Source: Candidatus Absconditabacteria bacterium
GTDB lineage: Bacteria; Patescibacteriota; Gracilibacteria; Absconditabacterales; Absconditicoccaceae
Direction of reading: 5' to 3'
Assembly: GCA_028693445.1 (NCBI GenBank)
Contig: JAQUVI010000004.1
Coordinates: 75,167 to 119,450, forward strand
Length of the DNA stretch: 44,284 nt
A program made the position numbers and the translations under genes. Positions 16,750 through 39,034 of the stretch are shown in pieces. The notes under the pieces were generated by a model that saw nothing but the letters and a program-made list of their open reading frames with translations, did no database searches and was not told the origin of the DNA. Each line of letters starts with the position of its first letter. The first letter of the stretch is position 1.

Positions 16750-16903
16750 CGAGCAATAAAAAGGACAAATAAAAGAAGGAAATCATCACTAAACCAACAC
16801 CATCCGTAGCCAAAAAGCAGCGATACAATAGAAACTAAAATATAATTCTAAATAAAACATTGCCTTGATGATGGATGAATTTTATTTGTTTTTTATTGCG
16901 AGA
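16750..16903 (-). repeat. 143-bp dispersed element, copy A (minus orientation)
   Basis: The core spans 16755-16897, between the start of ligA and the end of the sugar transferase gene. Terminal inverted arms are AATAAAAAGGACAAATAAAA and its near complement, extended outward by TCGAGC / GCGAGAG. The element contains GTAGCCAAAAAGCAGCGAT, the reverse complement of the conserved core. See copies B (23050-23192), C (33281-33423) and D (38042-38182). It could be a MITE-like element or a structured RNA. Confidence 0.85.
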
Positions 16904-23044: not shown

Positions 23045-23200
23045 CTCGTAATAAAAAACAAACAAGACTCAATAATCATCAAGGCAGTATCATATTTGGA
23101 ATTATAGTCTAGTTATAATTGCATCGCTGCTTTTTGGCTACAGATGATGTTGATTTAGTGATGATTATTTCCCTTTGTTTATTCTTTTTATTGCTCGAGT
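23045..23200 (+). repeat. 143-bp dispersed element, copy B
   Basis: The core is 23050-23192. The left arm is AATAAAAAACAAACAAG; the right arm, as its complement, reads AATAAAAAGAATAAACAAAG. The core ATCGCTGCTTTTTGGCTAC is intact. Both arms carry the CAAACAA variant rather than CAAATAA, as expected if the arms pair. Confidence 0.85.
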
Positions 23201-23244
23201 TATCGAACTCACTTGTTATATATTCATTTATTCTTTAACCGCTG

Positions 23245-23323
23245 AGTTCTAAGTTCTAAGTTCTAAGCTCTAAGTTCTAAGCTCTAAGTTCTAAGTTCTA
23301 AATTCTAAGTTCTAAGTTCTAAA
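23245..23323. repeat. Heptamer array (CTAAGTT)n, 11 units
   Basis: Eleven 7-base units, mostly CTAAGTT with CTAAGCT and CTAAATT variants, end 10 bases before the PBP start codon. The position within the 5' untranslated region means copy number could change the leader. Confidence 0.88.
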
Positions 23324-31442: not shown

Positions 31443-33140
31443 TTATTTTATAATTTTCAAAACCTCTTCTATAGTCTTTCTATCATTTGCAAGTTTTGGA
31501 ATTTTATTTTGTCAACCAAGTTTATTTTTGGATTGTAACCACTTGTAAAAACTACCTTTTGGTACCAAATGAACTGTTGGTTCTCCAAGAACTTTTGTAT
31601 CATATCTTTCGTCATAATAATACGAGTTTACGTTGCAAAGTTCTTGATCAAGGATTTTTGCAAATCATTCTTGATCTTCTGGAACACTCTCACATTCTAT
31701 TATCCATTCATAAGCTCATCTTATTTCTCAACCTTCGTACATAATTGGTGCAACCATATAATCATAAGCATGGACTCAAGTTTTATCACTTGCAGCCAAC
31801 AATGCTCTATCAGTATAATCAGCAGTTACACATTCCCCCACAACATCAATATAATATTTTGTTCTTCCTGTTATCTTAATTCTCCAAGGATTTAGGGTAG
31901 TAAACCTTATAGTATCTCACAAAACATATCTTCGCAAACCAGATGTATTGGTAATTAAAATAACATAATCTTTATTTAATTCTACTTGATCCAAAGTGAG
32001 TACAGTTGGGTTATCCTTTCCATATTCTTGGAATGGTATAAATTCATAAAAAGTTCCATGGTCAGTAAACAAAAGCATATCATCAGCATCATTGCTATCT
32101 TGAGATGCGAAATATCATTCAGAGGCATTATAAATCTGATAATATTTCATGTTTTTGTTTGGCATTAATTCCTCTAATTGTTTTTTGTACAAACTAATAG
32201 ACATTCATCATCGGAAAAACAATTCCAAATTTGGTCGTATTTCATGAATATTGTTTTGAGATTTTTCTTCCAACAACCTATATAAAAAATTTGAAATCCA
32301 TGATGGTTGACCACTAATTGAAGTAATATTTTGTTTTGTTGTAAGTTTTATTGTTTTTTTGACTTTTTCTTCTCGATCATCCATATAAGAAATTTCTGGT
32401 CATGGAGTTTTAAATACTTGCCCTATCCATGGAGAGTTTTTCTGTAAAATAGCAGAAATAAAGCCGATATTATCTTCACCAGTGAAAGGGTTTTTTACAA
32501 ATCATCATCAAATAACCAATCATTTACCTTGAAAAAACTTACTTTTGGGATTATTCTTAACGTATAAACTAAGCGAACCAAGTCATCATTTAAAATGAGA
32601 TGTTCTGAGGTTTTCATTTGTAATTGGAATATATTTTGCTGTTCATCAAGTTGTACCTGATGATGTTGCAAATCGATCTATTTTACCTGGATAACTAACA
32701 TTTTTCTCACCTTTTACCATACGTAAAATCCATGGTTCAAAATCCTTATAATGAAAAATAGGAACTAATTTTTGAAAATCTTGGATAGTTTTTATTTTTT
32801 CAAAATTAAATTCTTTTGCAAAAGACGTTTTTTTTGCTTTTCTTATAAGATCAAAAAGAATTCTCTTTTGTTGTAAAAAAGAAGGAATATATACATCTGC
32901 ATTTACTATTAGATAAGCCTTAATTACTTTTTCAAAAACACGAGATGGGAGATGAAAAACATGCTTTGGAATATCTATTATTTTTTCTGGGCTTCACAAA
33001 ATATCTATTGATAGTTCTAATACATCAATCCCCATTTCTAAAACATTTTTTGGTATACTAAGAATAATTTTTGGCGCAAGTAAAACTTTTTGTGAAGCGC
33101 TAATTAATCTTTCTTGAAAATCTTTGATTTTATTTGGCAT
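31443..33140 (-). CDS. GH3-family acyl-adenylating amido synthetase
   Basis: This is a 565-residue frame from ATG 33140 to TAA 31443-31445, with TGA as Gly. Motifs of the ANL/GH3 fold: FATSSGTTGGTAKYIPIT (phosphate-binding loop, residues ~157-174), SISGQPSWI, LFF(CGA)GGMSISLYKKQL, YNASEGYFASQD (the tyrosine-Glu A5 region), FIPFQEYGKD and GLRRYVLGDTIRFT. Plant GH3 enzymes join amino acids to jasmonate or auxin; bacterial members are widespread but their substrates are mostly unknown. CGA at 32673-32675 precedes FATSSGTT, where bacterial relatives commonly have Trp. It sits upstream of the AlaE-like gene in one probable transcript; amino-acid conjugation linked to export is speculation. Confidence 0.87.
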
Positions 33141-33487
33141 ATATATTTTTATTTTTTAAATAGTTAGATTTTGTTGTATATATTGGTTGTAAAATTGCAA
33201 GAATTTTAAATAATTTTTATTTTCTCTTGTGAAAAGAGTTTAAAAATGTAAATATTAATCTCAAATAAGCTTTCTCTCACAATAAAAAACAAATAAAATT
33301 CACCCATCATCAAAGCAATATCATATTTAGAATTATAATCTAGTTATGATTGTATCGCTGCTTTTTGGCTACACAATATGTTGATTTGGTGATGATTTCC
33401 TTCTTTTATTTGTTCTTTTTATTACTCAATTCATTACGCTATCAAAAATATATAATCAAATTTTATTTTACATTATAAATTCAATAA
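33141..33487. other. Divergent spacer between GH3 gene and pheT
   Basis: No gene is supported. It contains 143-bp element copy C (33276-33429, listed separately) and AT-rich flanks that must hold both promoters; the pheT start follows copy C by about 60 bases. Confidence 0.7.
33276..33429 (+). repeat. 143-bp dispersed element, copy C
   Basis: The core is 33281-33423. The arms AATAAAAAACAAATAAAA and TTTTATTTGTTCTTTTTATT are nearly complementary over 20 bases. A second inner pairing is ATCATCA with TGATGAT. The core ATCGCTGCTTTTTGGCTAC matches the other copies. It is the cleanest copy of the family. Confidence 0.88.
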
Positions 33488-35986
33488 ATGAAGTACCATT
33501 CATCGCTGATCAAGAAGTACATTTCTGTAAACGATACACCAGAAAATATAGCCCAAAAGTTGATAGTAAAAACATGCGAAATTGAAGAAATAATCGAAAG
33601 AAAAATTTCAGATTTGATTGTTATCTGATATATAAAAAGTTGTGAAAAGCATCCTGATGCAGATAAATTAAATGTTTGTATGGTAGACTGTGGCGATAAA
33701 TGAGAATATCAAATTATATGTGGTGGAAGCAATGTAAGAGCCGGAATTTATGTACCAGTTGCTTTGCCAGGTACGGTTTTTTCAAAAGCAGGAATTACGA
33801 TTGAAAAAAGAAAAATGAGATGAGTCGAATCAAATGGAATGATTTGTTCAAAAGAAGAATTGGAAATCAATGAAGATCAAGAATTACATAGTATTTGGGA
33901 TTTGGAAGTTGATTTGGATGGTATTGAAGCTAAGGATTTGGGGACGCCTATTGCTCAAAAATTTCTTTGGCTAAATAGTTATGTATTTGATGTTGACAAC
34001 AAAAGTTTAACAAACAGACCTGATCTTACAGGACATTTTGGAGCGGCTGTAGAACTTAATGCAATATACGAAGCGAAGGATATTAGCTTCAACAAGGTTT
34101 CTGAGTGGATGAAACAATTTGCTGATACAAATATTTTTGATACTTTTGATCACTCTACTCCAGCCAAAAGAAATGTGATCTGAGAATCTACTAGCCTAAA
34201 TAGTTATACTCTTTTGGAAATCAATAATATAGAAATAAAACCTTTGTCGTTTTTCACGAGACTTCAACTTATCGATATGGGAGCAAACCCTAGAAATAAT
34301 TGGGTAGATTTTTCAAATCTTTTTATGCTTTTGACTGGACAACCTATTCACTTTTTTGATGCTGATAAAATTGATGGAGATGTAATAATTAGAAATGCCA
34401 AAGATGGCGAAGAATTTATAGATCTTTTTGAAACCAAGCATAGTTTGAAATCGACAGATATTGTAATTGCTGACAAAAACAAAATTCTTGCTTTGGCTTG
34501 AGTTGTAGGTTGATTGGAAAGTTGAGTTTGAGAAAACACCAAAAATATTTTGGTAGAAATTGCAAATTTCGATCCAGTTGCAGTGAGAAAAACTGGTACA
34601 AGACTTGGACTTAGAACAGATGCAGAACTTAGATACGAAAAAAATATCAATCCTTGGTGGTCTATGTATTGTTTGTTGTTATTCTTAGATGAACTCAATT
34701 ATTATAAAAAAGATTTATGAAATTTTGAAATTTGAGGAGTTTCAGTTTATGTAAAAGCCAATTTACAAGAACAAAAAAATAAAGAAATAAATATAGACTT
34801 GGATAATATTGAAAAAACTATATTTTGAACAAAAATTGAAAATTTCAAGCAAGATGCAAATAGAATTTTACAAGGACTTGGATTCCAAATAAAAGAAAAC
34901 TGAATTATTTGTCCAATACGAAGATCGCCAGATGACCTCAATATACAAGAAGACATAGCTGAAGAAATAATCAGAATTTATGGTTATGAAAATATAAAAG
35001 GTTTGCCGGTTTTGAGCGATGTGCAATATACGCCATATATTCCAACTGTAGAGCTTATGAGAACACTCGAAGATCTTTTTGTACAAGATTTTTGTTTTGA
35101 TCAAACAGAAACATATCCTTGGACAAGTGCGAAACTTTTGCAACAATTTGGGACAAACCCAGAAAATTGTTATAGTTTACAAAATCCAGTAAATATAGAT
35201 ACCCCATATTTGAGAGATAGTATGATTTACAACCTTTTGGGGTATGCTACAAAAAACAATAAATTTTTCGATAGTTTTCGTATTTTTGATATAGCTAATG
35301 TATGGAAGAAAAATTTAGAAGAAAAATCTGATAATGATAAAGCATATGCTACATCATTTGTAGATGAATCATTTGAACTCGGAGCATTGTTTTATGAAAA
35401 ATCGTTGGATACTTGGAATAATGACCCATTTTTGACTACAAAAAGTTTGTTAACTCCTTTATTGCAACGTTTGGGTATTGATAAAGAAATAACTTTACAA
35501 GTTACAAATCACAATCATTTTCATCCAAAAAAACAAGCTGATATTATCTTGGATTGAATTGTTATTTGATGTATAGCTTCTTTACATCCATTGGTTCTCA
35601 AAGATCATAAAATTCCTGAAACCGCAGGACTTTGTTATCTATCATTGTCTTTGTCTACACTTATAGAAATAAATAATAATTTAGAAATCAAAGCAACATC
35701 ATATGAAACGCTTCAAGATCAAATTGTTTGGAGAGATTTATGTTTTGTAGTTGATAACACAAGTAGTTTTGAAACTATTTTGAAAGCCATAAAAGATATA
35801 AAAGATATTTCAGCATTGGAGGTTTTTGATGCTTATGAAGGTAAAAATCTAGGTGAAGGCAAAAAATCAGTTTCTTTGAAAATCAAAATTTTGGGGGAAG
35901 GAAATCTCACCACAGAACAGATAAATGAAGTAATGAACAAAGCAATAAAAGCTGCCGAAAAAGCATGATGAAATTTGAGAGCATAA
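33488..35986 (+). CDS. pheT: Phenylalanyl-tRNA synthetase beta subunit
   Basis: This is an 832-residue frame from ATG 33488 to TAA 35984-35986, with TGA as Gly. Order: N-terminal tRNA-binding OB domain (KHPDADKLNVCMVDCGD, ICGGSNVRAG), B3/4 editing region (LTNRPDLTGHFGAAVEL, ANPRNNWVDFSN, GQPIHFFDADKI), B5 (AVRKTGTRLGLRTDAELRYE, EDIAEEIIRIYGYENI), the catalytic-like core and a C-terminal FDX anticodon-binding domain (FEVFDAYEGKNLGEGKKS). It charges tRNA-Phe together with PheS, which is not in the window. CGA at 34919-34921 lies where the family reads PSWR, i.e. Trp, directly followed by AGA for Arg. Confidence 0.96.
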
Positions 35987-37221: not shown

Positions 37222-37926
37222 ATGAAAAAAATCTGATTTCTTTTATTGTGAATATTGTTTTTGTGAACATCTTTTGCTACCTATTAATCAGTTAGTGAAA
37301 CATGGAAATCTCCAGAATATATGTCTATGAATTTTCAAGCAACACTAGAAAATAATACTGTTGCTATGACATGGGCTCCTTTTAATTTGCCAGCATGACA
37401 CTCTTTTGTTTATTGGAAAGTTATGAGATCTCAAAATACAGATAATCCTGTGTATAAAGAAGCTAATAGCGAATATATAAAATATGATAATGATATTGGA
37501 TTTACTTGGTATAAGGATCAATCTCCAAAAAAAGGAACTACGCGATATAGAATATGTGCTATCACCAAAGCATCTGATGGATATCATAGATATTGTTCAA
37601 AAGAAGTGAAAAAACTAGAATATTCTTATCAAAGTACAACAACTGAAACTTATACAAAACCTACAGTTACTACAACATCATCGCTTACAACAGCACAAAT
37701 AACTGTCTTAGATGAAATAGCTAGTCAATTCCTTGCAAAAATAGAAGCAAAATATTCTGATATATCAAAAAGAAATGAGATAATATCAAATGTTATTACT
37801 CAATTAGATATATTAGCAAAAAGAAGAGCTTCTATGAAATCAATGATATCTTATCTCAACACAAAATTAGAAGCAGCTATTGATCCTTTGAAGAAATTAA
37901 AAGTATATTGGATATTGAATAGTTAG
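37222..37926 (+). pseudogene. Secreted fibronectin-like protein gene interrupted by TAA after the signal peptide
   Basis: ATG 37222 opens a perfect signal peptide (MKKIGFLLLGILFLGTSFAT, with three TGA glycines), then TAA at 37285-37287. The same frame stays open for another 212 codons to TAG at 37924-37926: SVSETWKSPEYMSMNFQATL, WAPFNLPAGHSFVYWKVMRS and KGTTRYRICAITKASDGYHR look like one fibronectin type III-like domain. A Thr-rich linker and a C-terminal helix (ISKRNEIISNVITQLDILAK) follow. Intact coding on both sides of one stop suggests a recent nonsense mutation (TAA could come from CAA), a sequencing error or readthrough. An internal start at 37321 would lack a signal peptide. Confidence 0.72.
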
Positions 37927-38037
37927 AGTTGTACGATGTCATTTTGCAATTAAAAAAAATCAGCTATGTATAATTCTAAGACAAACAATATATAAACCAT
38001 TCACTGTTACATTTTCTTAACGGCAATTAACTTATTA

Positions 38038-38188
38038 TCGTAATAAAAAATAAAAAAATTCATTCATCATCAAGGCAATATCTTATTTAGTATAAAGTCT
38101 AATTTTTGATTGTATCGCTGCTTTTTGGCTACAGACAATGTTGATCTGGTGATGATTTCCTTCTTTTTTTATTATTTTTATTACTTTA
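38038..38188 (+). repeat. 143-bp-type dispersed element, copy D
   Basis: The core is 38042-38182 (141 bp), between the interrupted gene and the convergent rnhB. Left arm AATAAAAAATAAAAAAATTC; right arm, as complement, AATAAAAATAATAAAAAAAG. Both arms have lost the C of CAAATAA in parallel. The core ATCGCTGCTTTTTGGCTAC is intact. Nothing else is seen in 37927-38209. Confidence 0.85.
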
Positions 38189-38209: not shown

Positions 38210-39034
38210 TTAGAAAAGTTTCTCAGCCTGAGGTTTCTTTTTGCGGGGTAGACGGGAAACTTTTTTTGGTTGTTTTGGTTTTTTGGGCTGTTTCTTAAAC
38301 TCGGGGAAATATTCTTTCAAAAAAAGTTTTCTATGAATATCTGAGGGACCATGTTCGGCTATTAAATCCCTATGCTCTTGGGTGCCGTATCATTTATGCT
38401 GGGCAAAATTATATTGAGGGTAGTCTTTGTCTAGTTTTATCATTTCATGGTCCCTCAGAACTTTTGCGATGATGGATGCCATGGAAATCTCGGGGATGAG
38501 CGCGTCGCCGTGGATGATTGTGATTACTGGACATCAGAGTATCTGGTCGACGCCAAAAGTTTTGTTTCCGTCAATACTGAGTTCTAGTTCGAGACCGAAG
38601 TCTTTCAAGATATCTGCAATCTGAGGCATAGCCTCCACTACATTTTCTTTTTCTAGAAAGAGATTTTGCAATTTTATTCACTGCATTGCATCACAAGAAC
38701 AAAGAACCTTACCTAATTGTTGGCTAATTTCTGTTGTGTAAAGTTTCTGCAAAACCATCTGCACCGCTCTAAGCACACCAAATTGCAATGCTTTGGTCAT
38801 ACCATGAAGATCTATTTCACGTGATGAAACAATCCCATATCAATAAATAATCTGATTTTTTTGTTCTAATATTTGAATTTTGGCAAATAATTCTTCTCTT
38901 TGACGCTCGGAGAGAATTTTGGAGTCTTTATAGTGTTTCTTGGTAAATCTCTGGCGGGGAAGAACTGCTCCCACATATAAAGGTCAAGCCAGCGGTCCCC
39001 TCCCCGCCTCATCAATATATATTTTGAGTTTCAT
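38210..39034 (-). CDS. rnhB: Ribonuclease HII with basic C-terminal tail
   Basis: This is a 274-residue frame from ATG 39034 to TAA 38210-38212, with a few TGA glycines. It removes ribonucleotides and RNA primers from DNA. The type 2 RNase H signature is at the very start ([20 protein letters not shown], Asp/Glu for metal), followed by [25 protein letters not shown] (second Asp), [19 protein letters not shown] (third) and [17 protein letters not shown]. The last ~45 residues are a Lys/Pro-rich extension ([19 protein letters not shown]) beyond the usual end, probably a nucleic-acid-binding tail. GC content is locally higher than neighbours, with ordinary GGN glycines prevailing. Confidence 0.94.

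Follow-up and report, generated by a model that had tools for sequence, protein, structure and literature searches.

The 143-bp element located between a GH3-family gene (31443-33140, minus strand) and pheT (33488-35986, plus strand) is a member of a dispersed repeat family, which probably consists of small non-autonomous mobile DNA elements similar to bacterial MITEs or to ERIC/NEMIS-type intergenic repeats. The dispersal of the copies, their junctions, and their presence or absence at syntenic positions together point to mobility. In total, 18 full-length copies, plus deleted and composite ones, were detected in the 1.17-Mb genome studied (1,167 kb; G000). Four of these lie in the window, i.e. 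the whole 44-kb stretch of DNA that was analysed (44,284 nucleotides), which is therefore unusually dense in the element. The species studied belongs to the Absconditabacteria (SR1) and is congeneric with RAAC1_SR1_1 (Candidate division SR1 bacterium, Accession No. CP006913.1; G002), its closest congener, and a third congener (G001) was also compared.

The four window copies lie exactly at the positions and on the strands given in the original prediction. They are 143, 143, 143, and 141 bp in length and alignable end to end, with a mean column identity of 83% over the aligned stretch including flanks. Copy 1 (16755-16897, minus strand) is located between the genes for a sugar transferase and the NAD-dependent DNA ligase, copy 2 (23050-23192, plus strand) between a T4SS-pilin-like gene (minus strand) and a penicillin-binding protein gene (plus strand), copy 3, the element under study (33281-33423, plus strand), between the two genes named above, and copy 4 (38042-38182, plus strand) between a plus-strand gene ending at 37926 and the RNase HII gene (38210-39034, minus strand). 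These gaps are co-directional, divergent, divergent, and convergent, respectively. The host uses TGA as a sense codon: long frames with clear Pfam domains, including those for the NAD-dependent DNA ligase, sugar transferase, penicillin-binding protein, PheT, and RNase HII, are open only when TGA is read as a codon. The element itself contains no conserved frame and all copies are intergenic, both as originally proposed.

The element is composed of inverted outer arms and an inner stem surrounding an asymmetric loop. In copy 3, the left outer arm AATAAAAAACAAATAAAA (33281-33298) pairs with the right outer arm TTTTATTTGTTCTTTTTATT (33404-33423), and the two enclose an inner module of ~92 nt (33305-33396; model R2) comprising the inner stem, the apical loop, and the core ATCGCTGCTTTTTGGCTAC (33354-33372), all on the plus strand. 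The four window copies have in common their A-rich/T-rich arms, a TCATCA/TGATGA inner stem, and a 19-nt core that is the same in all of them. The family consensus is AATAAAAA.ACAAAYAAAA / TTTTRTTTGT..TTTTTATT for the outer arms and TCAYYA/TRRTGA for the inner stem, which is followed by the apical loop with the core ATSSCTGC(TT)TTTGRCTAC on its 3' side. Among 25 copies from the two species, 95% of the cells in the 17 outer arm pairs are paired, and standard pairs account for 95.8% of the cells when the 23 pairs of arms and stem are taken together. Seven pairs (21 cells) have changed on both sides, a level reached in none of 500 shuffles and a signal destroyed by sliding the partners, so that the predicted pairing of the inverted arms is genuine. 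Wobbles in the arms and stem are of the G.U and A.C types in similar numbers (7 and 13, respectively), and thus neither strand is marked as RNA by these parts, as expected for DNA.

Exact matches to the core numbered 11 in the studied genome, compared with none for a reversed control, and blastn and a covariance model (R1, built from 17 copies) yielded 17-18 full-length copies; a chance origin is thus excluded, and the expectation that many further copies exist beyond the window was borne out. The R1 model identified ~13 elements in CP006913.1 and none in the third congener, and a search of 46 further genomes of the family gave nothing convincing except in G045, which is described below. An exact-core search of 85k genomes returned 17 matches, among which only CP006913.1 has the element itself. 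Eight other matches viewed in context all lack the arms, and several of them resemble protein-coding sequence (ATG GCT GCT TTT TGG CTA). Two exact-core matches in IMG/VR are likewise without the element, and searches of phages and plasmids gave none. Weak matches to the ends only, obtained in sister genera (L043-L052), were rejected as apparent chance similarities between A/T-rich stretches, an inverted partner being found in none of the seven tested. No match was obtained with the Rfam 15 covariance models at either gathering or permissive thresholds, in keeping with the description of the element as uncharacterised, and the literature searched yielded no account of repeats of this kind in Candidate Phyla Radiation bacteria. 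Over 28 copies, the relation to neighbouring genes shows no preference (9 opposite, 8 same, 7 divergent, and 4 convergent); a role as a transcription terminator or leader was rejected in view of this inconsistent context.

The junctions have the consensus RTTNTYTCRC followed by AATAAA on the left and TTTATT followed by GYTCRAWTYAT on the right, so that YTCR occurs on both sides. In 13 of the 27 copies with both ends, the two 4-mers are identical, including co-varying pairs (CTCA/CTCA and TTCA/TTCA), whereas in the remaining half or so they differ between ends. Identity exceeds that of shuffled pairings (permutation p ~0.0005 at that offset, the best of ~280 offsets). Copy 3 is flanked by CTCA at 33276-33279 and 33425-33428 on the plus strand, a putative target duplication. 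A T is found two bases beyond the right 4-mer in all 27 copies, while further out than the 4-mer neither a longer duplication nor an extended inverted repeat rises above shuffled pairings. The YTCR 4-mers are thus probably a 4-bp duplication of a sequence-specific target. No clean single-copy empty site was found at the syntenic gaps compared, because the intergenic DNA is too diverged.

The window is collinear, in reversed order, with positions 345-396 kb of CP006913.1. Copies 3 and 4 have counterparts there in the same orientation (365448-365587 and 361355-361495, respectively) with alignable sequence on both sides, although a further insert breaks the right end in the case of copy 3. Copies 1 and 2 are absent from the orthologous gaps. 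With two more orthologous full pairs (L020/L085 and L024/L079), four orthologous sites are known in all, whereas L013, L016, and L017 face gaps of CP006913.1 lacking the element and the third congener lacks it at the sites of copies 1-3. Copies have been gained or lost between species, and the presence/absence at syntenic gaps (copies 1 and 2, L013, L016, and L017 relative to CP006913.1, and none in the third congener) favours the mobile reading. The gap of copy 1 holds a different mini-element in each species: in CP006913.1, a member of a second palindromic repeat family, and in the third congener (G001:C10 near 18200; L138), yet another dispersed repeat (GCAATCTC...GATTGCTTCGTC...CGCAATGACA). 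The second family (GTGAGCGYTTAMATTTTTAGRYAARAAAAYACA...TGTGTTTTCTAYCGTTAAGAAAAT...CTCAC, ~85-100 bp) is scattered in the genus, e.g. at 345-420 kb of CP006913.1 (L108 and L109), at L099 and L101, at L035, L037, and L148 of the studied genome, and in the window near 37990-38035; it is also inserted inside copies of the element studied and matches on both strands in the sampled parts.

Orthologous copies share 0.73-0.79 identity, which equals the between-species average (0.76), the average within the studied genome being 0.83. They are not mutual closest relatives, and the members of each of the four pairs differ in the two-base core indel; in L024/L079, the arms and the right half are nearly identical but the apical loop is wholly different. 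As orthologues are not closest relatives and differ in core type, the copies appear to have been inherited in place yet rewritten, either by gene conversion or by re-insertion into an existing element. Altered forms are common: arms-only minis (L103, 37 bp; L146, ~70 bp), a 120-bp deletion variant (L097), copies broken up by further local repeats (L029, L036, L091, L095, and L101), nested and composite copies, isolated ends, and doubled ends. L026 is a mosaic, its left third being 98% identical to L027 and its right third 98% identical to L023. Together with the arm covariation without strand preference, the arms-only, nested, composite, and mosaic copies suggest mobile DNA. Simple repeats in runs of (A)CTTAGA / TTCTAAG, as well as a longer repeat (AGTCGAAGAGAATAAGCTCTCTTATACTCTTCATT...), are inserted in or beside copies, replacing apical loops (window 23230-23310; L029, L033, and L036).

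The core had been described as almost invariant and better conserved than the arms, from which a functional RNA or protein-binding site was argued in preference to a plain MITE. Within the recent expansion in the studied genome, both descriptions hold (mean pairwise identity of 0.93 for the core and 0.86-0.88 for the arms), but in CP006913.1 the relation is reversed (0.81 and 0.90-0.93, respectively). Few copies of that congener keep the exact core, and two T's of it are missing in most of them, as also in some copies of the studied genome (L024, L028, and L145). Since the higher conservation of the core is lineage-specific, the argument fails as a general statement, and the core is not nearly invariant for the family as a whole. 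The preference for an RNA or protein site is further weakened by the duplication-like 4-mers, the gain and loss of copies, the nested, mosaic, and arms-only forms, and the wobbles without strand bias; what remains in its favour are an inner ~90 nt kept across genera and one inner helix that changes almost only in ways compatible with the plus strand, both considered below.

Bacterial MITEs such as ERIC/IRU (RU-1), Correia/NEMIS, and RUP are <200 bp, protein-free, A+T-rich, and intergenic, have terminal inverted repeats, form a long stem-loop, and occur in many copies, and no related IS is known for the majority of these families (review PMC2229807). The element of the SR1 genomes shares all of these listed traits, being 143 bp, non-coding, A+T-rich, dispersed (18 full copies in 1.17 Mb), and bounded by terminal inverted repeats, and no related IS was found for it either. 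However, most bacterial MITEs have 5'-TA-3' termini (PMC2229807), whereas the SR1 element ends in (C)AATAAA...TTTATT(G), the YTCR duplication is seen in only about half of the copies, the inner module is common to genera with different ends, and the copies show a polarity bias. REP/BIME elements with RAYT (TnpA-REP) transposases (named in PMC2817692 and PMC3733652) are likewise dispersed extragenic palindromes, but they are 20-40 bp rather than 143 bp, and no Y1 (RAYT) transposase is present in the three congeners. Miniature derivatives of IS200/IS605 also have hairpin ends and a conserved 4-mer beside the left end; in contrast to them, the SR1 element has true terminal inverted repeats and an apparent 4-mer duplication, its genomes contain no Y1 transposase, and its orientation does not flip between replication arms.

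As originally noted for the window, no transposase was seen: Y1_Tnp (PF01797), DDE_Tnp_1 (PF01609), and rve (PF00665) are absent from all three congeners, in which controls were detected. No inward-pointing end pair 1-3 kb apart, as sought for an autonomous copy, was found, and a Pfam scan of ten genes adjoining isolated ends revealed no transposase or recombinase linked to any copy. The mobilising enzyme may have been lost or may belong to a family outside these three. In the mobile reading, recognition of the arms, either by an enzyme or by host recombination at the hairpin, would have led to insertion into an AT-rich YTCR site with duplication of ~4 bp. Copies would then have been mostly inherited vertically, while recombination among them altered their sequences in place and other local repeats took over their loops. 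Arm complementarity could be kept by the need for symmetric end recognition or by hairpin-templated repair copying one arm to the other.

Two findings do not fit a plain MITE: the inner module is kept in another genus with other outer stems, which an element defined by its ends would not predict, and 22 of 27 independent copies have one polarity. The mobile reading is also weakened by the lack of an autonomous copy, of the three transposase families sought, and of a clean empty site, and by the junction 4-mers that differ between ends in about half of the copies. The inner module was recognised in one weak R1 match in G045 of the sister genus g14 (L149, E 1.2e-4), which aligns almost without gaps to the inner ~90 nt and agrees at 35 of 46 strongly conserved columns, but in which GGCGTCATTA/TAATGACGCC take the place of the A/T arms as the frame. 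Three more copies with the stem CACCATTA/TAATGGTG (L150, L203, and L205) were identified in G015, a sampled genome of the same genus, and L149, L150, and L203 are homologous to the inner module of copy 3. With a model built from the studied genus only (R3), L149 and L150 were recovered in 1.13 Mb at E-values of 1.6e-7 and 6.1e-4, respectively, and L203 came next at 0.19, while L205 was found by similarity to L150. When sequence alone was tested, L149 and L150 scored higher than 1200 dinucleotide shuffles. No clear match was obtained in the sampled parts of G007, G011, and G017. Because the module recurs in the sister genus with other outer stems, it, and not the A/T arms, is probably the older part.

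Each sister-genus copy is preceded by a hairpin (L150:15350-15430; L203:380-457; L205, minus strand, next to 19776; L149:1420-1490), and the stems of these hairpins all differ, e.g. CCAATATTTTTG/CAAAAATATTGG and CTACTTTTTC/GAAAAAGTAG. Two of the hairpins have a TCTTGAT loop with pseudoknot-like complementarity to the linker (ATCAAGA or ATCAA). The G015 copies (L150:15481-15505 and matching parts of L203 and L205) also carry an extra GC-rich hairpin inside the loop, with differing complementary stems and, in two copies, six T's after it, resembling a terminator.

A functional reading is kept open by the inner module, which is conserved more deeply, and by the polarity. The ~90-nt module might be an old structured element of Absconditabacteria, i.e. 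a small RNA or a hairpin read by a dedicated machinery, framed by different, exchangeable outer stems in different genera and amplified independently with fixed polarity around the chromosome; it would then be a new class of structured dispersed element and not a MITE, which we regard as rather unlikely. A dispersed structured RNA, in which each copy or its inner ~90 nt is transcribed from the plus strand as a small RNA or RNA-protein scaffold and the A/T arms merely frame it, is an unlikely explanation. The recurrence of the module without A/T arms and the two-sided changes of the inner stem across genera are consistent with it, but the outer arms show no wobble strand bias, the position and orientation relative to genes are inconsistent, the core and loop vary freely or are missing in some copies (L024, L079, L097, L103, and L146), and no Rfam model matches. 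Departures in two inner helices, CARTAT/ATRTTG and CAARGCA/TGC..TTTG, are mostly of the G.U type on the plus strand (37:3 and 26:0 relative to A.C, respectively), as an RNA would predict, but the two helices have bases in common, these counts reflect few independent changes, and the second helix does not exceed its shuffle control (102/500).

The polarity concerns the whole chromosome. In CP006913.1, 12 of 13 elements are on the minus strand, and when contigs of the studied genome were mapped on it by synteny anchors (those copies that lack a local anchor being positioned from the collinearity of their contigs), this polarity was shared by 14 of the 18 full copies; over both genomes, 22 of 27 independent positions point one way (p 0.0015). 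In sampled stretches of CP006913.1, GC skew is mostly negative at ~500-1,110 kb and near zero or weakly positive at ~120-450 kb, a strong asymmetry between the two halves of the chromosome. Since the polarity remains constant across the GC-skew switch near 470 kb, replication-linked (leading/lagging) orientation was ruled out as the sole cause. The bias and the symmetric, DNA-like covariation of the arms would suit a palindrome that binds a protein in a polarity-dependent way and organises the chromosome (nucleoid, segregation, or replication). Such a site is quite improbable, as known motifs oriented from ori to ter would flip at the switch, copy number and sites differ between species, and the lack of the family in the third congener indicates that the element is dispensable. 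A recombinase substrate, in which a tyrosine or serine recombinase would act on the hairpin as folded single-stranded DNA, as in a small integrating cassette or in integron attC, with YTCR as the crossover core and not a target duplication, would agree with the direct 4-mer, which has more conserved bases on either side (such as the T found in 27/27 copies), the imperfect hairpin with a conserved loop, and the insertion sites common to two species, but no recombinase gene is linked to any copy in the flanks scanned and the idea is very doubtful.

If the family consists of mobile DNA elements, then very small genomes carry and rewrite non-autonomous elements, although three major transposase superfamilies were not found in the genus. 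A functional inner module would represent a new structured element of a barely cultured phylum. The orientation of nearly all copies in the same direction round the chromosome is a puzzle open to testing. In either case, the covariance model provides a means of mapping intergenic turnover between SR1 species.
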